Source: Pestalotiopsis fici W106-1
Lineage: Eukaryota; Ascomycota; Sordariomycetes; Amphisphaeriales; Sporocadaceae
Direction of reading: 5' to 3'
NCBI RefSeq assembly: GCF_000516985.1
Contig: NW_006917098.1
Coordinates: forward strand, 868,001 to 932,000
DNA: 64,000 bases
Numbering within the stretch: the first letter of the stretch is position 1; each line of letters starts with the position of its first letter. A program made the translations under genes and the position numbers. Below, piece after piece: positions 4,534 through 63,931 of this stretch. The notes beneath the pieces are model-generated. The model did no database searches. It was not told the DNA's origin and was given only the letters and a program-made list of their open reading frames with translations.

Positions 4534-5387
4534 ATGTTTACTCTCAAAGATACCATCTACCTCATTGAGCTGGCATTCTATGGGCCCATCATACCTGCCA
4601 TCATCTTTGTCATTCTCCTCCATGGCGGCAAGAAACCATACACATGGCGCCCGGTCATCATTCCCCTCATGTTGATGTCGGGCCTGAGAATCGCCGGTGC
4701 TGCTGTTGGGCTCAGGTCACTGAGTCCAGACAAGGCCAGCTTGGCCAGCACTGCGACAATACTCGACACCATCGGGCTTGCGCCAGTCATTTGCTTGATT
4801 ATCGGTCTTCTCATCAGAGCGTAAGTACCTTCCATGAAGCAGCAATTGAGTATGTCGCAGTATATTGACGAGAGAGCAGTAATGCACCATTGTATCGAGG
4901 GCTTCCGTTGTGGGCATTCATCCCGCTCCAGATGCTGGCAGTAGCAAGTACCGTCATGACAGCATACGGGGGCAGGGACCTGTACACGGCTGGGAAGAAT
5001 GCGCAGCGAGACTTGACACTGATGCGAGTGGGCATCTTTCTGTTCATTACAACCTTTGCCGTCGCAGTGGTGCTGGCCGTCATTACTGTGCTCAAAGCCA
5101 GTGGAAAGGGCTACAGAACCGAGTGGGCCGTCGCCGTGTGCGCGCTGCTGTCCGTTCCCTTCATGGCCGTCCGTCTCACTTTCTCGACGGCGTCGCTGTT
5201 TACTGGCCAAGACTCTGTCCTCAACCCCATGACTGATAATGATACGGGGGTTTGGCTGCATTTATTCATGGTTGTCATCATGGAATACATCATCAGCTTT
5301 TCGGCAACCGCTGTGGGTCTGACTTCGAGGAGAGTCGTCTCTATTGCTATTGAGAAAGATGACTTGCTAAGTGAAGAAGAACATTGA
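4534..5387 (+). CDS. DUF7702-family seven-helix membrane protein
   Basis: The exons are 4534-4820 and 4880-5387 with a 59 nt intron (GTAAGT...CAG), giving 264 residues. ATG 4534 is chosen because the frame upstream has no ATG and family members start at about this distance before the first helix. About seven hydrophobic segments are visible, including YLIELAFYGPIIPAIIFVIL, a helix after RPVIIPLMLMSGLRIAG, ILDTIGLAPVICLIIGLLI and the C-terminal LHLFMVVIMEYIISFSATAVG. The layout and the motif FMAVRLTFSTAS match the fungal DUF7702 family of integral membrane proteins as I know it. Its biochemical role is unknown. The acidic tail (KDDLLSEEEH) is probably cytosolic. An alternative acceptor 3 nt upstream would insert one residue. 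Confidence 0.85.
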
Positions 5388-12874: not shown

Positions 12875-14016
12875 AATGATGTTGGAAGGCATCTATGTTG
12901 CGATGCGACAAGAACCTAGCCTAGGTAGAAAACCCCTAGCCAAATTCGTGAAACGAATCAACCCCGTTGGAGGTGCGTGTTTGGAATATACCCAATCCAT
13001 CTACAGCCTCGCAAGCACAAGTGGCCAGATAATTGTCATTATTGTTGATCAAGGTGGTGCATTCCATTGGAGTTCTAAACTGGTCAGAAATGGGCGTTCA
13101 TTGTTGATGTATTGATCTATGTTGCCTGACTATTTGTTTCAACGAGGGGTAGGCTTTATTTGGGCGGCCCCGGCTAAGTCCCAGGAGCCCCATACACTTA
13201 TCTAGACGCTATGGCGTAGCTGTGCATGACTTGCTCAGGTGTCGTTGCTTCACCAAACCCCAGGCCTGGGCTCAGTTCCCACTATAGAGCTACCCTATTA
13301 TACGTGCACTATCACAAAAGCCTAAAATTGACCAAGATCAAAATAAAAGATCCAATCTCAAGAGGAGAAAAATGATACACCCTGTTACTTTTTTTTCTTG
13401 GTATTGTCTTTCTTTTGGTGGGCTCATAGCCAAATGAAGTGGAAAAACCAGGGCAAGCCTTGGTTGACTATTAGGTAGTCACGACGAGATGGAAGCTACC
13501 AATGGTTTGCTGGGTTAGCAAGCCCCTGCTGAACGGCAGTCACAATGTATTGCCTTCATGTCTAGCGGCCTTATCCACGATTACCATTCTGCCAAAAGCC
13601 CTGCGCTAATGAATGTTGTAAGAAGACCCCGCGACTTTCATTTATAGTGTACATCACCACCATGCAGTCCCCCTGCAGTCCCCGAGCGGTCATTGAGGCT
13701 GAGCTGCAATGTACCCATGCTTAGAGCACAATGCGCAGGCTGATTACAGTGTATGTACGAAACTGCGATGAAAAGAGGCAGCAGTCCGAACGCTACTCAC
13801 TGCAGAATGCAACTTTAATTAACCTTGATACTCAGCTGTGTTGTAGGTCACAGATTTGCAGCAAACCCTCAAGCCAATGTATATATTTGTTATGCACCCC
13901 TATCCCCCGCATTGCCCCTTCCATGTGAAGTCGCGTTGAATCAGGAAGTCTCCCCACAAAATGTACCCTCTGATTTCCCTTGTAGTTCTAGATCTACGAG
14001 ACGCTCGCCGCCTCAC
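12875..14016. other. Intergenic containing a diverged solo LTR relic
   Basis: No gene is recognised. Positions 13043 to about 13232 are homologous to the 233 bp LTRs of family B found 8-30 kb to the right. The remainder precedes the HET gene. Confidence 0.55.
13043..13232 (-). mobile_element. Solo LTR relic of family B (diverged, not AT-converted)
   Basis: It starts TGTTGATCAAGGTGGTGC exactly like family B LTRs and follows them through ATTGGAGTT, AACTGGTC and the GC-rich GGCCCCGGCTAA core. Similarity fades near 13230, so the other terminus and a target duplication are not seen. Unlike the copies in the 21-43 kb block it is not AT-rich. The strand follows the coding strand of family B. It is probably an old LTR-LTR recombination product or truncated insertion. 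Confidence 0.7.
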
Positions 14017-16487
14017 ATGGCTCACGAAGTAATTGAATTACACCAGTTGAACAGGCCGCGTGCAACATCAGCCAAAGGAACATATTCGGACTTGGCGCTG
14101 CCACCCGACCATATCCGTTTGCTTGACCTGCACAACGCCCCCAACGATGCCCCATTGACGGGTATTCTGCGAGTCGAGCGGCTCACCAACCTGTCCACGT
14201 ACAAGACTCTGTCGTACCAGTGGGCCAAGGAGACGTCACAGGGCGCTACAATTCGATGCTCGCTACAAACCAATGAACCGCACATTGAGCTGCACATTAC
14301 GACAAATTGTGCACAGGCCCTGCAATTCATTCGCCGAGAATTTGGGTCGGTAACGATTTGGGTCGATGCGATTTGCATCAACCAAGATGACGACAAGGAA
14401 AAGGAAAACCAGATCCCGTTGATGGGCAAGATCTACAGCCAGGCTGAGACCGGCTTTATTTGGCTTGAGGGAGATGGTGACCAGTTTCGTGATGCCGCCC
14501 ATGAGCTCCGGCTGCGATCCGTAATTCACAAGCGGCTGCCGCTAGCTTACCTGGCAGCCGATGCAGGGGAGCAAAGACAGCTTGAGCTTGATCGTTGGAG
14601 ACAGAGGTGTCTGGATGATGTCTTCGGTAAGTGATAGCGGTTATGCAACATCGATTAACCGGAGGCTGATACGATTTTCATTCTTTAGCACGGGATGGAC
14701 TTGAGGATCACGCACACTACTCGTTTGAAGACTCCGGAGACGCGCGGCTACAGGTACTGTTTGAGCATATGTGGCTGAGTCGTATGTGGACATTTCAGGA
14801 ACTGATTCTCTCGCGCAATCCACTCTTGCTCTTTGGCAACAGTATCATACTATGGGAGGAACTGGTCAACGCTATTCTCGTTACACCGCAAAAAGTTGAC
14901 ACTAAAACTCATTGGCAAACACTGATCCAGTTGTGGTTGGACTTCCCGCGACATCGCCATATGGAACAGGCGCTGTCACACCCCGAGGAAAGGGATGCAG
15001 CTGTTGAGAACGGGCAAGCGGTCGTCACAGATCTATACACATTCCGCAGCCTCATTGAATTCTCTCCAGAAAAAAATATCAGCACGCCTTGGCAACATAT
15101 CCTGCTTCGTTATGGTAGAAAAGGTGCTAAATTGTGCCTTTGGAACTTTGGCCGCTGGCTTGTACTCATGGTGCTGTTACTCGTAAATCCGATTTTATTG
15201 GGTTATTTTGTTACCAACAGCGGCTCCGGCAGATTCCTTCACCTTGGTATAATCTTTCTTCTGTTCTGGGTCGGGTCCCTCTTTCCCATTGCTCGGTTGG
15301 CGATTATCAATGCACGGAGAATGTCTTTCTGGCAGCTTCTTCATGGAATGAAACGACCAGAGCCACGACGACGGAAGTTGTCTTCCAACTCGACAAATAC
15401 AATTGTTATTAGCGCCATCTGGACCACGCTAAGAATGCGCAGGTGCTCTGACGACCATGACATGGTGTATGCGCTAGCCGCTATTCTTGAGGCTTATGGT
15501 ATGGTTATGCCGCCGCTAGAGTATTCTCAAAGTATCAAGACGTCCTACCAGGCTTTCTTTCAATGCATCCTTTCATTGGAGCCGCGCGCGATCCAAATGA
15601 TCGTTGATGCTAGTGTGGAAGACCCGTCAAAAATGGCTTGGTCATCATGGCTTCCGGATTGGAGGATGCCAGAAAAGAACAATTGGCTTTTCAACGAGCA
15701 CGACGCAAAACACACTTGGATCCAAGACTTCCCCCAGTATTGTCAATCACCTGCCGTCATTGGTGATCGATTGTCCGTTACCGGAAAGGAAGTCGACAAA
15801 ATTGTGGAATGTTTTCATTTCACAGCCGTGAATCTTGACGATCAGCAACTCGTCCTCGCTAATTTGAGGGTGTTACTAAGATTTATGCAGAGTGTGCATA
15901 ACAGGGCAGCTTATGGAATGGATCTGTATTATCGTGGGGCTATACTTGCCGTCTTGAAAGGCCTTTTAATGCAACCCGTCGAGACAACAGTCCGAGAGAG
16001 TATACCGGATGTCCTTAATGGACCTTCAGCAAGAATGTTAGTTTTGGATGAAATCATAGCTCCCTTTAATTTCGAAGCTTACCGAAAGGACTTTTATGAT
16101 TTCAAAAGGCTAAATGGTCTCACGCATAGCTTTTGGGAACGCAACGATCCAATTACTCAGTACGACCCAAATATGGATATGCAAGAATTAATACGCGAGG
16201 TCCAAAACGACGGAGCTGCTGTTGGATTCATGTTACGAATGGCGAACAAGCTCGCGGAGCAGAAGCGATGTGTTTTCGTTTTGTCGTCTGGTGCAGTCGG
16301 CTCTGGACCGCACTTTTCCGCCGCGGGAGACGAGGTCTTAGTGGTACCAGGCGTTTCCAAGCACTTGGTCGGCCGAAAGAAAGAAAGACAGGGTACCTAT
16401 CGCTTTATAGGCCCTGGGCTGGTGCATAGTATTGTTGCAAGGGACACGCTTGTAGGTGGACAATATAAAGACTTCGTTTTTGAATAA
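14017..16487 (+). CDS. HET-domain protein with central transmembrane helices
   Basis: The exons are 14017-14626 and 14689-16487 with a 62 nt intron (GTAAGT...TTTAG), giving 802 residues. ATG 14017 is the first ATG in frame; the open frame upstream lacks one. HET motifs are TLSYQWAKE (about residue 63), IWVDAICINQDD (about 114), MGKIYSQAETGFIWL, and WLSRMWTFQELILS (about 232). Two hydrophobic helices near residues 354-410 (WLVLMVLLLVNPILLGYF and LGIIFLLFWVGSLFPIARLAI) suggest membrane attachment between the HET domain and the C-terminal half. The C-terminus has a motif found in many HET proteins (RCVFVLSSGAVGSGPHFSAAGDEVLVVPG). The likely role is non-self recognition with a cell-death output. 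Part of the family reputation comes from NOD-like partners, none of which is encoded nearby. Confidence 0.92.
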
Positions 16488-19540: not shown

Positions 19541-20877
19541 ATGCTCCCTCGGAAGGAATTGTGACGGTTAAGTTGATTGATAGTACGGTCATTACTTTTT
19601 GGAGATGCTGTTCCAAATATAGTTTACAAGTAGGGGGGATGTTTTTCAACAAAGCTTCAATTACTCCTGATCAATCATGACTCATGTGATTTTTAATTCA
19701 TGTTCTCTGTCTCCTAGTCTCTGCACTTCGCGGGCGTATTCGGGTGCTCCCGGCTTACCATTGAAAGCGCCCTGCACCCACGCAAAGCCACGCTAAGTCT
19801 ATGGACATCGTTGGTGTGCTTCAGTATGCACTCATCTCTGACAATTGCCCATGCTTAACTAGGAGTACGGCACATATCTGTAATGTAGTAGGCACTGGTG
19901 GCTGTTCATGCAACTCCCATGTGACCATAGCGTAGGTTCCTGTCCACCCTGAACTCTATTATGAGCCGTCGGAAAACTCACAATGGCAGTCATCAATATT
20001 TTTGAACAAATGTTTGACAAGCAGAAGATGGGCAATATACGCAGCCATTCAAGGCTGCGTATTCCTTGCTGAATTCCCGTTATTCGAGCTGACCAGCCCA
20101 GAAATTTGGCGAATACGCAAAGGTGTTGCGTATTACCTCATCTCTAGTAAGTGGCGAACCCGAAATGCGAACCCAAAGTACGAACCCAACGACTGTCGAT
20201 CTGATCCCGCATCGCACGCTGTAAGGGATGCTTTACGTGGCTGGTCTAGACAAATCATTCAGGGCTACTATTCGCGCTAAAGCTCGAGTGTGCACCGTAT
20301 CAATTTGGATTGCCAATATATACCAAATCCCAGCAGTTACACTTGACTGCATCTTCTGGATACAATGGTGTTGATCAGTGTGCTGTGGCCTGTGCATCGG
20401 CTGATTTTGGCACTAAATTCCAGTTATACACTTGTCCGGAGTGTTACACTTACTGTGTATGCTCCTTGTGCACAGAGGTCAAAAAAAGATCTGGAAATTG
20501 CCAACACTTGCTTGATTGATTCTGTGACTTTGGCAGACGAGTCTCACCATAATTATAAGATTTTTCGAGCAGATGGGCACTCATATCATACAGCTGTACC
20601 GTCTGTACTGAAGCGTTCCGCTCTTAGGGCGGGGCGGTCTTTTCTAGCGCCGACAGCTGCCGCAGCCCAACGCTGATCAATGTCTCGCCGTCTTGAATAT
20701 CGCGAACCATCATTGTAGATCATTCCTTGCTGCACTGAAAATCAATTTGTTTTAATATGTAAGTTTGGTTCATGAGTTGTAGTCTCCATCCTCGACATAA
20801 TAAGTGCGACTCCTATAATATATCGCGAGAATTATCCTTGTTTTTCTTTATATACATTTACCTAGTCGCTTAATAGT
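19541..20877. other. Intergenic up to the TRIM
   Basis: No supported gene. Frames at 20002-20280 (begins with ATG but has no domain) and 20310-20519 (begins TTG) are not called. The last part leads into the transposon block. Confidence 0.4.
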
Positions 20878-20957
20878 TGTTGAATAATACCATTGTACCA
20901 TAGAACCAAAAGAGACATGTCCCCACGGTCTGGGAACATAACAGGTATTATCTAACA
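20878..20957 (-). repeat. TRIM LTR (3' LTR in element orientation)
   Basis: 80 bp, identical to 21193-21272, with TGTT...AACA termini. The adjacent internal sequence is the polypurine tract on the minus strand. Confidence 0.95.
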
Positions 20958-21050
20958 CACCCCCTCAGCTGGGACATAGTTCTTTACGGGCGAGCTGGAC
21001 ATCCAGTATTCCAATAGGCTCTTAGCTCCGTTACGTCTTTTTAGCTGGAT

Positions 21051-21117
21051 AACGTAGCTGGGGATCGAACCCAGAACCTCCCCTCATTCGGTGCACTACC
21101 AGTTATGCTACTAGGTT
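21051..21117 (-). other. tRNA-like segment with Pol III box A and box B inside the TRIM
   Basis: On the minus strand, AACCTAG and CTACGTT can pair as a seven-base acceptor stem with one mismatch; the pairing extends three bases outward (GAT/ATC). TAGCATAACTGG (minus strand of 21099-21110) fits the box A consensus and GGTTCGATCCC (minus strand of 21061-21071) fits box B, with a perfect CTGGG/CCCAG T-stem and a GCAT/GTGC D-stem. The region between D-arm and T-arm is about 5 nt too short for a normal anticodon arm plus variable loop. It is therefore a degenerate tRNA-derived sequence rather than a working tRNA. Confidence 0.7.
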
Positions 21118-21192
21118 ATCGCGGAAGTGCGTAGGTCGCCAACCCACTGGTTAATGCACGGGTGGCCCTTGCGAGCGAATGAGACTCTTAAT

Positions 21193-21272
21193 TGTTGAAT
21201 AATACCATTGTACCATAGAACCAAAAGAGACATGTCCCCACGGTCTGGGAACATAACAGGTATTATCTAACA
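21193..21272 (-). repeat. TRIM LTR (5' LTR in element orientation)
   Basis: 80 bp, identical to 20878-20957. On the minus strand it is followed directly by ATTAAGAGTCTC, the proposed primer-binding site. Confidence 0.95.
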
Positions 21273-21327
21273 ATAGTGTTTAAAAACATGCTACACTAAC
21301 CCTATATAAATCTGTGCACACATCTAT

Positions 21328-21559
21328 TGTTGATCAAGGTGGTGCTTTCCTATTGGAGTTTAAACTGGTCTGATATTAGTATTAATTATGTGATGTATTA
21401 ATTTATATTCTGCGCTTTTAATTTTAACGAGGTATATATTTATTTAGGTGGCCCCGGCTAATCCCCGGGAGGTCCCGTATATCTATTTAGACACTATAGT
21501 GTTAATCCGTGTGCTTAAGCATACCTTAATATATAAAAACCATAACCTACCATCTAATA
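21328..21559 (-). repeat. B1 LTR, left copy (232 bp)
   Basis: It begins TGTTGATCAAGG at the TCTAT target duplication and ends at the CACCCCTTT polypurine complement. It holds the GC-rich core GGCCCCGGCTAATCCCCGGG. Confidence 0.9.
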
Positions 21560-37700: not shown

Positions 37701-39587
37701 CGTAATTTTTGTAAATGCGTAGGCTTTATATTTTATTATAATTGGTCCTTTGATTTTTACCCCTTAAGATAAATAGATAAAGTATTCGAGAGCTGCCGGG
37801 CCTAAATATCCTATTTTATAGTGCTATCGTATAGCTTTCCTAATTAATAATGGCCTTTTTATTTATATTATATATTTTTTCCGGTAAATAGTAAATAACG
37901 CTAAAGGTAATTCGTAAAATTTATATTTAAAAACGTATTATTTATATCGGTTTTGGAGTATGCTAATTAAAAATTTATTTTTTTTGCGTAATATTATAAA
38001 GTCGTTTTTATTATCCTAATAGTATCCTTATCCTCGTAATTAACGGAATAATATTAATATAATTAGCAATTTAAGATAATAGGCTATATTATTTAATAAT
38101 AATATTTTAAATCTAAGCTATATAGTTATTATATTATACCCGTAAATAGGTAATTTCCGGTCGCCTAATTAGATAAAATCGTAATTAGGAGCTTGCCTAT
38201 AATTAATAAGCCTTGCTTTTATATTTATAATTAAAATCGTTATCGCTGGATCTAGGATAACTAAATAGCGCAAAGGGTAGTTTTTTGTGGATATTGCAAA
38301 ACTATTTTATATATTTGTTATTAATCGTCCGTCTTATTAATTTATATTAATCGGAAGCGATTTTTCCTTAGTTATTCGTAGTATACTAATTCGGCTGGTT
38401 TTAATCTTTTTTATATTGCGAACCTATTTTTATAAATTAGGGTTTTTTTTAAAGGCTTTATTTATTTGTATTTACACTTTATTTTTAAGGACGAAACCTA
38501 AATAGGCTTTTTTTAGGAATACGTAAAAATATAAATTAAAGGCGTAAAAAAAATAGCAAATAGGGCATTTAATATCCCTTTGCCTTTTATTATAAATAAT
38601 TCGTCCACTTTTTTTTTTATATAAACCAGCCGTATTTAATCGGGAAGGTATTTAATTTTTAACGAGGTAAACGTTTTTATTTTATCCGTTTTAGGGCTAT
38701 TTTTTAGCTTTATTAGCGTAAATTACGAAAGCGCCTTTCCCAATTTTTAGCCTAATCGGCTATTAAATGCTTAAGCTTTTATAAAAATCGTTATTTATTA
38801 CCCGATATTCTAAATTCCTATTTAAAATGCTTTATTCTTTATAAATTTAATAAAAAGCGGCCTATTATAATATAATTAAAATAATTGTATTTAAGAAATT
38901 TATAGCCTAAACCGAATTATCCTATACTTTAATTATTTGCTTTGCCTAGGCTTTCGCTATAACTATTTCCTATTTATTAACCTAATTAGCAGTTTTTTTT
39001 AATATTTTCGGAGGCTTAAAAGCTTCTAAATATTATTTCCTTATTTTTTTTTTATTATTTATAGCTAATTTGCTATAGCGAGCCCTTAAATTTTCGTACT
39101 ATTTATGCAAAAGCTCGTTAATTAAACAGTACGTGGAGAAAAAGTCTAGAGAAATCGTTATAATTATTTATTTTATAATTTCCTTAATCGCCGTATATTA
39201 TTTAGCGTATATAGCCTCCTTTATTTTATAGTAGTTATAATCGAAATTAAACAATTTTTAACTTCTTTTAATAAGATCCGTAATCGTCTATTCCCCGTCC
39301 TTTTTGTTTTGTATAATCGGATCGTCGTTTGCATTTGCAGCTTCGAAGGTAGCAGCCGCGGTCTTTATATATTTAGTTTTTTTTATATCCGGTTCGATTA
39401 AGGTTCTAATTAAAGTCGTTTTATTCTTAAAATAATTAGTTAGTCCGGCAATTTATACCTGGATCTAAAACGTATATTCCCAATTATTTTAATCGGAGGT
39501 TATTTTTAACGATGCCGTTAGGCCGATTCCGGCTTTTTTCGTAGTTATTATTTTCGTAGCTTCGGCGGAGGCACTAAGACTCTTAAT
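34789..39587 (-). pseudogene. RIP-degraded copia gag-pol of element B3
   Basis: It is a homologue of the B1 and B2 interiors, on the minus strand. It is AT-rich and stop-riddled, with no long open frame. Near its start (39490-39570, minus strand) GACGAAAAAAGCCGGAATCGG-type sequence is shared with B1 and B2. Confidence 0.8.
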
Positions 39588-39820
39588 TGTTGATTAAGGT
39601 GGTGCTTTCCTATTAGAGTTTAAATTAGTCTAATATAAATATTAATTGTATAATATATTAATCTATATTCTGCGCTTTTTAGTTTTAATAAGGTATACGC
39701 TTATTTGGGTGGCCCCGGCTAATCCCCGGGAGGTCCCGTATATCTATCTAAATACTATGGGGTTAATCCGTGTGCTCAAGCATACCCCAGTGTATGGGAA
39801 CCATAATCCACCATCTGACA
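39588..39820 (-). repeat. B3 LTR, right copy (233 bp)
   Basis: It starts TGTTGATTAAGG and ends CATCTGACA before the ATTAT duplication. Confidence 0.92.
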
Positions 39821-60900: not shown

Positions 60901-61153
60901 GGATTTAATAGCGAGATGAGGAGGCATGTGATCACTAAAATCACGCAGTGATAAAGTTGTTTGACTTTAGGCTACCCGCATCATAGCCATGAAACCGTTA
61001 AATGTCACGATGCACTATGTGGAGCACGATATTTCCCCCCTATTAGTCAGTCACGTGCTGGTCTAAGAGGTCGTTGACCGCCATATAACAAAGACCCGTT
61101 GGTTTGCTTCAACTTCTCTTTACCTGTATTACAACTTGTCAAGTTCGCCCATC
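57982..61153. other. Long intergenic region
   Basis: 3.2 kb with no supported gene. It holds divergent promoters of the acidic-tail gene (-) and the large HET gene (+). A 46-codon frame starting 59371 begins like a signal peptide but has no continuation I can join. A TATA-like CATATAAC lies near 61082, about 70 bp before the HET start codon. Confidence 0.45.
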
Positions 61154-63931
61154 ATGGCACACGCCCAGGAGCCCGGCGCGTTGCTGTGGACCATCACGGT
61201 CTTCACCTGCAAGGCCTGGTTTGTTGGAACAATCTACACTTGCCTTGGCATGCAATTTGTAGTTGTTCTGGCCGTGCTTTACTTCTTCATCGGGGTGCTC
61301 AACTTCGACCTGATCGTTCGTCGATTCTCTCGCAGGATGATTCGAAGAACTCGTCGGAGGCTACGGCTTATGCAGAGACTGCCTCTGATAGAAGCTATCA
61401 CTTCAGTAGCTGCGTCTGTTGCGGGGACCTTTCAGCCGGTCCAAGAGTCCATTGCAGAAGGGACACGAAGCGAGCTGGACGTTTGGCAGCTGCACATAGG
61501 CCCATTGGCTGCATCGCTTGCCTCACTAGTGTCTTTGGTCGTATCCAGTGTGGTTGAAATGCTAATCGTTCCCATCAGCATCAAGGCCTGGAGGCTCTTC
61601 GGCGTAGCAGTCAGAGAGGCAGTGGAGGATCTGGGACTTGCGGCGCACACGATTGAGTCATCTTGTCAACACATTCCTGGTTATCTCACAGCGCGAGCGC
61701 GACTTTCGCGATGCTTCTGGGTCTTCTTCAACTCGACTGCCGCAGATAGACTTGCTGACTGTCTGCTGGTATGGCGATCGCTTCTAGTTCATGGAAACAA
61801 CTACCTTTCCCGTGGTCTTAGTGCGTGGATATCCAAGACCTTGGACGTTCTCGACCTTGCAGGGTATAAGCCATACAAGAACAACATAAAAGAGGTCCTG
61901 GGTTTCTCTCAGCATTTTGCCATTATTCTCGAGCCTTTGATCCGAAACTTCTACAAAGAGAGTAAAGAGATCACGTTGGACGAAATACGCAGAGTCTCCG
62001 CAGCCAATGCGCTCGTGTATGGCTCGACCGAATCATTGACAGGAGAACAGTACGAAGCGATTGAAACCAGAGTCCGGCTCATCAAGCTACTTCCAGGGCG
62101 AGATAACGTGGCGCTGAGATGCTCTTTCATGACCGTCGACCTCTATGATCCGCTCTGTCCGGAGTTCGAGGCTCTCTCCTATGCATGGGGTTCTTTCGAT
62201 CTTGAAAAATACATCCGGGTAAATGGAAAGCCGTTCGAGGTTTCGAATTCTTTGCACGAGGCACTGCTACATCTCCGACGGGAAAGGGAACCTCGGATGC
62301 TGTGGATTGATGCTCTTTCGATCAACCAGAATGACATCGAGGAAAGAGGCTCACAGGTTCTCTTGATGGGTCACATCTACTCCAAGGCATCCAAGGTTGT
62401 TGTCTGGTTGGGCAATAGTGAGCCGTGGGGTCTGCGCCACGCTATTAGGGATACGAAGGTCCACATGTTCCCGGGCAAACAACAACGGGTTCAATCTGAA
62501 CTGGTTCACGTCGGATTGCTCCATGTGGTACGTTCCCTCCTTCGAAGATCGTGGTGGACGCGAGCCTGGGTCGTACAGGAGCTGGTCCGAGCCCGCGCCG
62601 TCGAAATGCAGTGCGGCTGCAGCACTTTGGACTGGGAACATTTTTGCGCTCTGATTGATGCCATTGGTGGCAGCACGCATCGTAAAACACTGCTGGACTC
62701 AACCTTGGAGGCACAGCCTGAACACAGCCCGATGAGTTCGTCTCCATTTTCACTCAGAAAATCCCACTTGGCCGAATTCCAGTCGCTACAAGTGGCACGC
62801 AAAGCCTGGCGTGCCAACCTCGATTGTAAATTGGTCACATATGCAAAGAGCTCAAGTGACACCACTCAATGGAACAACTCGGCGGACCTCTTAAGTCTCG
62901 TCTACTTGTTTCGTGGTCGACGCGCGACAGATCCCCGTGACAAAGTCTTTGCCTTCTTGGGCCTTGTCGATAACAGGGATGCCCTCATCATTCCGGACTA
63001 CGATCAGACCCCATCGCTTTTGAGCATCGAGTTTGCCCGCAGGCATATCCGACTTCACCGCAAATTATCAGTCATAGCCCTAGCAGAGTTTGCTCGCGAA
63101 CTCAATCGAGATGACTCACATCTACCTTCCGACAACATTGAAGACTACTTGCCAAGCTGGTGTCCGGCTTTCATGAGTACAGGGTCTATAAGGCACGGCC
63201 TTTATCAAGCCCCATTCTGGACAGGATTTTCCTACCCAGAGGATAATTTTGCTGCAGCGGATGGCTTATCAAATGTGATTGCAATCGACAAGAACGAAGC
63301 GCTACGAAATCGTTTTAGCCCGGGATGCAAAGAAGATGATGTCTACACTCTACTTGTTCAAGCTGTGAAACATTTGGGCAGCGCAGTCGTCGAGGCTGAG
63401 CGACTTTCTGACTCTGATGGAGTCAGTACTACACAGAGAGATTTCAATTGCGACAAATTGTTCGCGAAGTGGCAAGGAATTGCAGATTTTGCAATCGAGA
63501 AGCGCTCTCGATTTCCCGAATCAAGTTTCCCGGGAACATCGCTGTCCCGCGACGCGCTTGTACACCTCACTGTGACGGCAGGCAAGTTTTGCGCAATGCC
63601 ACCGTCAACGGACCCTTCTGAACGGACATTTTATCTTCAAACTCGTGCCGATACTTGCCGAAACAGACAACTTTTCCTTACTAAAAACGGGCTTCTCGGC
63701 TTGGGGCCTAAAGGGCTGAGGATAGGCGATGAAGTGAAAATATTGCTTGGCATGCAAGCTCCGGTCATGCTGCGACGAGTTGAGACAACTGATGGCAAGA
63801 TTAAAAGGCAACTATGGAAATATATCTACCTCGGGCAGGTTTATATACACGAATTGATGGTTTACAAAGGGAACCTTCAAGAAGATATCAAGTCGCGCTC
63901 AGTCTCATTGGAGGACTTGCTCTTGGTTTAG
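61154..63931 (+). CDS. Large HET-domain protein with N-terminal membrane region
   Basis: This is an intronless frame of 925 residues; ATG 61154 is the first in frame. The N-terminus has two hydrophobic helices (about residues 10-55, TITVFTCKAWFVGTIYTCLGMQFVVVLAVLYFF), then a basic stretch RRFSRRMIRRTRRRLRL, and another hydrophobic segment (about 115-140, LAASLASLVSLVVSSVVEML). The HET domain follows: FEALSYAWGSF (about 339), LWIDALSINQNDIEERGSQVLLMGHIY (about 382-408), VVVWLG, and WWTRAWVVQELVRA (about 470). YLFRGRRATDPRDKVFAFLGLV is the usual post-HET motif. The layout suggests a membrane-attached incompatibility protein, an arrangement less usual than the common soluble N-terminal HET form. 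It is an apparently intact non-self recognition gene; the death mechanism is unknown. Confidence 0.94.
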   Translation: MAHAQEPGALLWTITVFTCKAWFVGTIYTCLGMQFVVVLAVLYFFIGVLNFDLIVRRFSRRMIRRTRRRLRLMQRLPLIEAITSVAASVAGTFQPVQESIAEGTRSELDVWQLHIGPLAASLASLVSLVVSSVVEMLIVPISIKAWRLFGVAVREAVEDLGLAAHTIESSCQHIPGYLTARARLSRCFWVFFNSTAADRLADCLLVWRSLLVHGNNYLSRGLSAWISKTLDVLDLAGYKPYKNNIKEVLGFSQHFAIILEPLIRNFYKESKEITLDEIRRVSAANALVYGSTESLTGEQYEAIETRVRLIKLLPGRDNVALRCSFMTVDLYDPLCPEFEALSYAWGSFDLEKYIRVNGKPFEVSNSLHEALLHLRREREPRMLWIDALSINQNDIEERGSQVLLMGHIYSKASKVVVWLGNSEPWGLRHAIRDTKVHMFPGKQQRVQSELVHVGLLHVVRSLLRRSWWTRAWVVQELVRARAVEMQCGCSTLDWEHFCALIDAIGGSTHRKTLLDSTLEAQPEHSPMSSSPFSLRKSHLAEFQSLQVARKAWRANLDCKLVTYAKSSSDTTQWNNSADLLSLVYLFRGRRATDPRDKVFAFLGLVDNRDALIIPDYDQTPSLLSIEFARRHIRLHRKLSVIALAEFARELNRDDSHLPSDNIEDYLPSWCPAFMSTGSIRHGLYQAPFWTGFSYPEDNFAAADGLSNVIAIDKNEALRNRFSPGCKEDDVYTLLVQAVKHLGSAVVEAERLSDSDGVSTTQRDFNCDKLFAKWQGIADFAIEKRSRFPESSFPGTSLSRDALVHLTVTAGKFCAMPPSTDPSERTFYLQTRADTCRNRQLFLTKNGLLGLGPKGLRIGDEVKILLGMQAPVMLRRVETTDGKIKRQLWKYIYLGQVYIHELMVYKGNLQEDIKSRSVSLEDLLLV

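Follow-up and report, generated by a model that had tools for sequence, protein, structure and literature searches.

A miniature LTR retroelement of Pestalotiopsis fici with a candidate split Pol III promoter and a likely Copia helper

How does a retroelement of only 395 bp stay clean next to a large AT-rich repeat block, and by which machinery could it be transcribed and moved? The question is raised by a locus of the ascomycete Pestalotiopsis fici W106-1, where a window of 64,000 nucleotides (contig NW_006917098.1; C8:868001-932000 in our genome search of 51.7 Mb in 20 contigs) holds an intact terminal-repeat retrotransposon in miniature (TRIM). We call its family TRIM-A and a related family of the same genome TRIM-B. 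With modest confidence, we favour the view that TRIM-A is a non-autonomous element that parasitises a 5.3-kb Copia retrotransposon and carries an RNA polymerase III (Pol III) promoter split between long terminal repeat (LTR) and interior, and that the window copy is clean through recency and not through its size.

The window element and its relatives

The sense strand of the window element is the minus strand, with the primer-binding site (PBS) directly after one LTR and the polypurine tract (PPT) directly before the other. Its parts are as follows.

20878..21272, minus (sense strand): complete TRIM-A element, 395 bp, delimited by LTR repeat and target-site duplication (TSD), oriented by PBS and PPT
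20873..20877, no strand: left TSD, ATAGT, read in the sequence
21273..21277, no strand: right TSD, ATAGT, read in the sequence
21193..21272, minus: 5' LTR (sense), 80 bp, TGTTAGATAA...TTCAACA, 0/80 differences from the other LTR
20878..20957, minus: 3' LTR (sense), 80 bp, 0/80 differences from the 5' LTR
21180..21192, minus: PBS ATTAAGAGTCTCA, complementary to tRNA-Lys(CUU) nt 27-39, from its match to a tRNA-Lys(CTT) gene
20958..20966, minus: PPT GAGGGGGTG, directly 5' of the 3' LTR, found with the pattern AGCTGAGGGGGTGTGTYAGATAA

With a length below 1 kb, two LTRs, and PBS and PPT at the ends of its 235 bp interior, the element has the anatomy of a TRIM; the listing of open reading frames (ORFs) of at least 250 aa gave none in this interior. 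The first-pass annotation had described a recently inserted 395 bp TRIM with identical 80 bp LTRs, a perfect ATAGT duplication and no AT conversion beside mutated neighbours, and this description is borne out by the 80/80 bp LTR match, the TSD and several dispersed copies. The GC content of the element is 0.47, compared with 0.48 in the two genic flanks and 0.18-0.29 in four stretches measured in the 21.6-43 kb part of the neighbouring AT-rich block, which spans about 21.3-43.2 kb. In this block, the composite index for repeat-induced point mutation (RIP) is RIP-like, at +0.62 to +0.75 (genic sequence, -0.64 to -0.69), and paired LTRs, whose starts lie about 5.03 kb from each other, occur together with inverted copies of the same sequences. 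The minus sense strand, a tRNA-like interior, the second family and chimeric copies had escaped the earlier reading.

A genome search with the whole element returned 12 places: seven complete or partly complete TRIM-A copies, a solo LTR (L008), an LTR fragment (L020, on C12) and three further matches, through which TRIM-B was recognised. The element is therefore no chance pattern. The TRIM-A copies are the window copy W and C2, C11a, C11b (L004), C13, C1a and C1b. The 5' LTR of C11b is foreign, and part of the 5' LTR is missing in C1a and in the truncated C1b; C1a adjoins a Copia LTR within its own 5' LTR, probably a later insertion. TRIM-B has an 81 bp LTR, measures 332 bp in copy L035 and is present in four copies (L035, L036, L037, L080) and a solo LTR (L081). 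Both LTRs of L037 contain the same extra 10 bp, marking a distinct sub-lineage. The two families share the PBS, about 87 bp at the end of the interior including the PPT, and the LTR start (77-81% identity); their middle parts and most of their LTRs are unlike. A perfect 5-bp TSD flanks 9 of 13 elements (seven TRIM-A, four TRIM-B and two solo LTRs, the LTR fragment being excluded), and imperfect ones remain at C11a (4/5 matching) and C13 (3/5, differences C/T).

The PPT pattern, with up to three mismatches allowed, occurs at 10 places in the genome, seven in TRIM-A and three in TRIM-B, so that no close autonomous element with the same tail was found among them. A further TRIM family using the same PBS was likewise rejected: its eight places belong to TRIM-B (three), TRIM-A (two), Copia (two) and one other locus (C2:3273297), where no LTR-like repeat was found within 601 bp of surrounding sequence. 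A match to the PBS complement with two mismatches lies outside the known copies at C4:1196861.

Primer and candidate Copia helper

The complementarity of the PBS to tRNA-Lys(CUU) is exact over 13 nt. ARAGORN called a tRNA-Lys(CTT) gene at the one locus fetched (L079 1475-1548), and the completed tRNA-Lys anticodon arm, a search pattern extended beyond the element's own sequence, matched 24 places with up to three mismatches, 11 of them without mismatch and 13 with two or three; a reversed control gave three places. The same 13 nt are found in TRIM-B copies L035 and L036, and 12 of them in a Copia element at window 39.6 kb, with a single C/T difference. The LTR of this Copia is followed by ATTAAGAGTCTTAGTGCCTCCGCCGA, which, counted from the PBS, agrees with TRIM-B at 24 of 26 nt.

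39575..39820, minus: Copia 5' LTR (39588-39820), then PBS ATTAAGAGTCTTA (39575-39587), sequence match
21328..21559, minus: Copia LTR (233-bp type, RIP-mutated) of a neighbouring element, likely helper family, sequence match

A PBS in the anticodon arm, as in Drosophila copia and Ty5, is the hallmark of half-tRNA priming, and that of TRIM-A, which begins at tRNA nt 39, conforms to it; cutting of the tRNA itself is predicted. The primer of Drosophila copia and Ty5 is initiator tRNA-Met cut after nt 39, instead of which tRNA-Lys(CUU) would serve here. Anticodon-loop priming of copia-type elements is cited in PMC10886601, which gives this arrangement for most Helenus elements of fungi and for Copia elements whose PBS matches; the anticodon-loop primers that its relevant passages name for fungal Helenus do not include tRNA-Lys(CUU).

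The Copia family, a 5.3-kb element with a 233-bp LTR, is abundant, with at least 41 LTR matches in the genome (a lower bound, 40 of 137 candidates having been scored). RVT_2, the reverse transcriptase domain of Ty1/copia, was found within 6 kb upstream at 6 of these 41 places, in the same sense throughout, three times at a distance of 822-840 bp and otherwise at 1591, 4061 and 5075 bp.

The helper relationship is also indicated by two chimeric elements, L036 (TRIM-B, 4623-5106) and C11b (TRIM-A), in which a full Copia 5' LTR is followed by TRIM PBS, interior and 3' LTR. Their Copia LTRs are 97.4% alike. Both chimeras lie inside perfect TSDs (ATACT for L036, ATAGT for C11b) and have therefore been integrated as chimeras; recombination between loci after insertion is not expected to leave matching TSDs. 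Integration as units in turn points to Copia as the helper, and the near-identical PBS together with the two TSD-flanked chimeras supports this family as the one that would mobilise the TRIMs in trans. Such molecules could arise when Copia plus-strand strong-stop DNA transfers to TRIM minus-strand DNA at the shared PBS. They look like direct genomic traces of an encounter between TRIM and helper during reverse transcription, and a literature search on such Copia/TRIM chimeras found no paper. With 5' and 3' LTRs of different families, they should be dead ends. According to the part of PMC10886601 that deals with these elements, no helper is indicated for Cassandra, and how TRIMs keep their helper dependence is not known.

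Together with the observed LTRs, PPT, 5-bp TSDs and tRNA-Lys(CUU) complement, the chimeras suggest a cycle in which Copia particles would take up the TRIM RNA, a 39-nt half of tRNA-Lys would serve as its primer, and Copia enzymes would carry out reverse transcription and integration. Stop codons interrupt 82 of 83 RVT_2 matches, and the remaining one is a fragment (these genome counts are lower bounds); the assembly therefore shows no intact helper. In this isolate the Copia helper may have died out, though TRIM copies look young.

Further Copia remnants were noted. Within the AT-rich block, the 233-bp LTR occurs six times, in either orientation and with one head-to-head pair at 26.57 kb, as parts of nested or adjoining Copia elements. 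On the right flank of C11b, a complete Copia LTR flanked by ATAAT at each end lies inside another Copia LTR, read by eye as nested insertions beside the chimera. A partial Copia LTR (LTR positions 58-233, 80% identity) is located in genic sequence at 13043-13217.

Candidate Pol III promoter and tRNA-like interior

The sequences that could direct transcription of TRIM-A by Pol III are listed below.

21205..21215, minus: box A-like TGGTACAATGG (TRGYNNARNGG) of the 5' LTR, with a second copy in the 3' LTR, pattern match
21061..21071, minus: box B-like GGTTCGATCCC, pattern match
21099..21110, minus: second box A-like TAGCATAACTGG, inside the tRNA-like sequence, pattern match
21223..21226, minus: TTTT, which may act as a weak Pol III terminator, one in each LTR (20908-20911 in the 3' LTR), the sole sense-strand T4 of the element
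21050..21117, minus: tRNA-like sequence, 68 nt, with shortened anticodon arm, Rfam RF00005, 41.3 bits, E 3.5e-7

In both families, a box A lies near the LTR end (LTR position 58 in TRIM-A; TGGTGCAGTGG at position 50 in TRIM-B) and a box B in the interior (at 202 and 133, respectively), and both boxes occur on the sense strand only. LTR box A and interior box B came together in just 4 (TRIM-A) and 3 (TRIM-B) of 20,000 dinucleotide shuffles; the TRIM-B input was 2 bp too long at its 3' end, where the interior took in 2 bp of LTR, with box positions unaffected. The remaining 63.6 kb of the window, searched on both strands, contained 26 box A and one box B matches and no such pair, and the tRNA-Lys locus was detected as positive control. 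The Copia LTR of chimera L036 has neither box.

From these patterns, we infer that TRIM-A and TRIM-B use Pol III. RNA would be made, though we are less sure of this step than of the helper cycle, from a split tRNA-type promoter whose box A sits towards the end of the 5' LTR and whose box B is interior. By the yeast rule of a Pol III start 18-20 nt before box A (PMC4937561, in its passage on tRNA genes), TRIM-A transcripts would begin at LTR position 38-40. With a stop at the TTTT of the 3' LTR, the terminal repeat R would measure about 11-13 nt in TRIM-A and 17-19 nt in TRIM-B. Given the interior position of box B, promoter activity would be limited to the 5' LTR in a complete copy, with the 3' LTR and solo LTRs remaining silent; the short R would be set by Pol III start and T4 stop, and the Copia/TRIM chimeras, devoid of a 5' LTR box A, would be dead ends for this reason too.

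Several observations weigh against a split promoter. The box patterns are consensus forms whose choice was post hoc, the boxes having been noticed first, and box B deviates from its pattern by one mismatch in TRIM-A and TRIM-B alike. As tails and LTR ends are common to the two families, these are not independent cases. The LTR box A is partly lost in mutated copies. From start to start, box A and box B are 144 nt apart in TRIM-A, which exceeds the 31-93 nt of yeast tRNA genes given in the same passage of PMC4937561, within which the 83 nt of TRIM-B fall; widely separated boxes, nearer to the TRIM-A spacing, are described for SNR6 in a passage of PMC9136082. TTTT precedes box A by 11 nt in TRIM-A and 5 nt in TRIM-B (start to start) and is the only sense-strand T4 in the two elements tested; its placement is not significant as proof of Pol III use, the interior being T4-free in 82% and 97% of the shuffles. 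As a terminator it is weak by yeast standards, where 7-8 U work best (PMC4937561, same part), and Pol III would have to read through it once, as it begins 7-15 nt downstream of the predicted start. Of box B, GGTTCGATC is kept in all seven TRIM-A copies; there is no CpA/TpG site within it, which makes this weak evidence of selection. Finally, the second box A of TRIM-A lies at a canonical 39 nt from box B, and the resulting A-A-B layout allows an interior start, giving an RNA that lacks the PBS.

The tRNA-like unit that contains the second box A and box B gives further objections. RF00005, with a gathering score of 29, was matched in only three of the seven TRIM-A copies (E up to 0.5), namely W, L004 with 42.6 bits and L006 with 30.3 bits. 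ARAGORN found no tRNA in TRIM-A and a cloverleaf fold of the RNA was not obtained (z 0.84), by which a functional tRNA is ruled out. A free-standing source of the unit was also rejected, as all six genome hits are TRIM-A copies, and comparison by eye with tRNA-Lys alone did not settle derivation from a named tRNA. The TRIM-B sequences scanned (L035, L080 and solo LTR L081) gave no tRNA match and sub-threshold hits of other families only. No 5S rRNA was found in TRIM-A, where RF00005 is the only Rfam match inside the element.

How else could these sequences be explained? TRIM-A and TRIM-B might be ordinary TRIMs transcribed by RNA polymerase II, with box A, box B and the tRNA-like interior present by chance or as the dead relic of a captured tRNA or short interspersed element (SINE). 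We hold this for possible, yet somewhat unlikely. It would agree with the lost fold, the insignificant T4 placement and the post hoc choice of patterns, and TRIMs that have no Pol III promoter are called canonical (TRIMp2) in the classification passage of PMC10886601; it fits poorly with boxes restricted to the sense strand in two families, with the rarity of the pair in shuffles and with its absence elsewhere in the window. Pol III might instead start at the interior unit itself, whose 39-nt spacing lies within the yeast tRNA range and whose extent from second box A to box B is exactly what the covariance model covers. The unit would then be a SINE-like passenger, and its RNA could not undergo reverse transcription in the manner of an LTR element. 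This is improbable in our view, because TRIM-B copy L035 does not have the second box A, the scanned TRIM-B sequences are without a tRNA match and the six genome hits to the unit include no copy outside TRIM-A. The split promoter of a Copia-dependent TRIM thus remains the reading that we prefer.

Among known systems, the closest are Helenus elements (TRIMp3; Kojima 2024, PMC10886601), described in the corresponding sections of that paper as short TRIMs with tRNA-derived boxes A and B. A 5-bp TSD, given for fungal Helenus, a Copia-type PBS complementary to a tRNA anticodon loop and LTRs unlike those of the helper are further features in common (PMC10886601, same sections). In Helenus, however, the tRNA-like sequence is within the LTRs, whereas here the LTR holds box A only, with box B and the tRNA-like unit in the interior. 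As tRNA-derived boxes A and B inside the LTRs were looked for and found in neither family, we place the elements beside Helenus and not as Helenus. Of the features of TRIMp3, i.e. TRIMs with a Pol III promoter, the boxes are present, and transcription is predicted from sequence. The fungal Helenus hosts listed in PMC10886601 are Pucciniales and three Agaricomycetes, unlike the ascomycete host here; the word Ascomycota does not occur in the main text of that paper, the single relevant one found for TRIMp3. The plant TRIM Cassandra resembles TRIM-A in combining a Pol III promoter with a short RNA terminal repeat (18 bp, by the corresponding passage of PMC10886601), but its promoter is 5S-derived, lies in the LTR and belongs to plants. 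Size and LTR-PBS-PPT-LTR anatomy are those of SMART and the canonical TRIMp2, for which no Pol III boxes are mentioned in the relevant part of PMC10886601. A box A in the LTR split from a box B in the interior was not found in the literature, judged mainly from titles and the beginnings of abstracts, with passages of PMC7215508 and PMC4646964 also compared.

We tentatively suggest that ascomycetes host a TRIM lineage whose LTR carries box A and whose box B follows just within the element. If so, a minimal LTR element would not need a whole tRNA gene in its LTR to turn into a Pol III unit, the internal-promoter problem of LTR elements would be solved otherwise than in Helenus and Cassandra, and the Pol III-driven TRIM class would extend to ascomycetes.

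RIP and the clean window copy

For P. fici (52 Mb), heavy CpA-to-TpA RIP is reported in the pertinent passage of PMC4320822. The first-pass annotation had explained the survival of the window element by its length, too short at 395 bp for RIP to detect. The seven TRIM-A copies were compared by alignment column, leaving out any column that had fewer than three letters or a letter outside the pairs C/T and G/A, and T-states at CpA were tested against those at CpC plus CpG sites (Fisher test). TRIM-B copies were counted against L035 alone, which as the reference has no value of its own. Relative to W, transitions/transversions amount to 15/1 in C2, 30/0 in C11a, 12/0 in C11b (interior and 3' LTR only), 45/0 in C13, 57/0 in C1a and 39/8 in C1b. 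T-states at CpA reach 19/53 in C11a, 22/53 in C13 and 38/50 in C1a; those at CpT are also raised (13/50, 19/50 and 19/48, respectively), and only 3-5/37 are found at CpG. C1b has 14/44 at CpA and 3/35 at CpG, in addition to its eight transversions. Fisher p values are 0.5 for W, 0.12 for C2, 3e-4 for C11a, 0.056 (borderline) for C11b, 7e-5 for C13, 1e-15 for C1a and 0.003 for C1b. In TRIM-B, the 332 bp copy L080 shows 28/48 at CpA and 0/22 at CpG (p 3e-5), L037 is borderline with 6/48 at CpA (p 0.048) and L036 shows no bias.

Clear, RIP-like CpA bias thus marks 5 of 11 copies (C11a, C13, C1a, C1b and L080), precisely the finding in other copies that the annotation had named as speaking against its own proposal. 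Freedom from CpA-to-TpA bias, as expected of RIP-exempt short repeats, does not hold for these families. Nor does 395 bp lie below the Neurospora limit, as had been supposed; it is just above the 380 bp quoted in a passage of PMC4646964, which also gives two predicted TRIMs with RIP evidence in Venturia.

A possible escape of short elements from RIP has been published before: according to the relevant passage of PMC9970103, RIP is less effective below about 500 bp in Neurospora, and short miniature inverted-repeat transposable elements (MITEs) likely escape. Leakage from neighbours could reconcile this idea with the mutated copies, since four of the five touch a strongly AT-rich flank and 9 of the 12 LTR differences of C11a fall in the LTR on the AT-rich side; RIP may have entered these four copies from there. 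A gradient along C11a is suggestive only, with 21/55 and 11/48 CpA/CpT sites in the two halves. Still, one biased copy is only 332 bp long and another, C1b, has normal flanks on both sides, so that we regard survival by size as very unlikely. W, C11b, L036 and L037, all without clear RIP, also adjoin AT-rich flanks.

Recency is the better and simpler account. W and its unmutated kin have likely been inserted after the last sexual (RIP) cycle, in line with the unchanged LTRs of W, the identity of TRIM-B copies L035 and L036 across 251 aligned bases and the lack of clear RIP in four copies despite their AT-rich flanks; the borderline CpA bias of C11b and L037 speaks against it. With clean as well as mutated copies, in surroundings both normal and AT-rich, the two families (395 and 332 bp) provide a natural test of the minimum repeat size for RIP.

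Elsewhere in the window, a carboxylesterase ORF, the one protein searched, is most similar to a protein of Pestalotiopsis sp. NC0098 (84% identity), in keeping with a host from the Sporocadaceae. Two long ORFs (13825-16487 and 61136-63931) may encode proteins resembling heterokaryon-incompatibility (HET) proteins.
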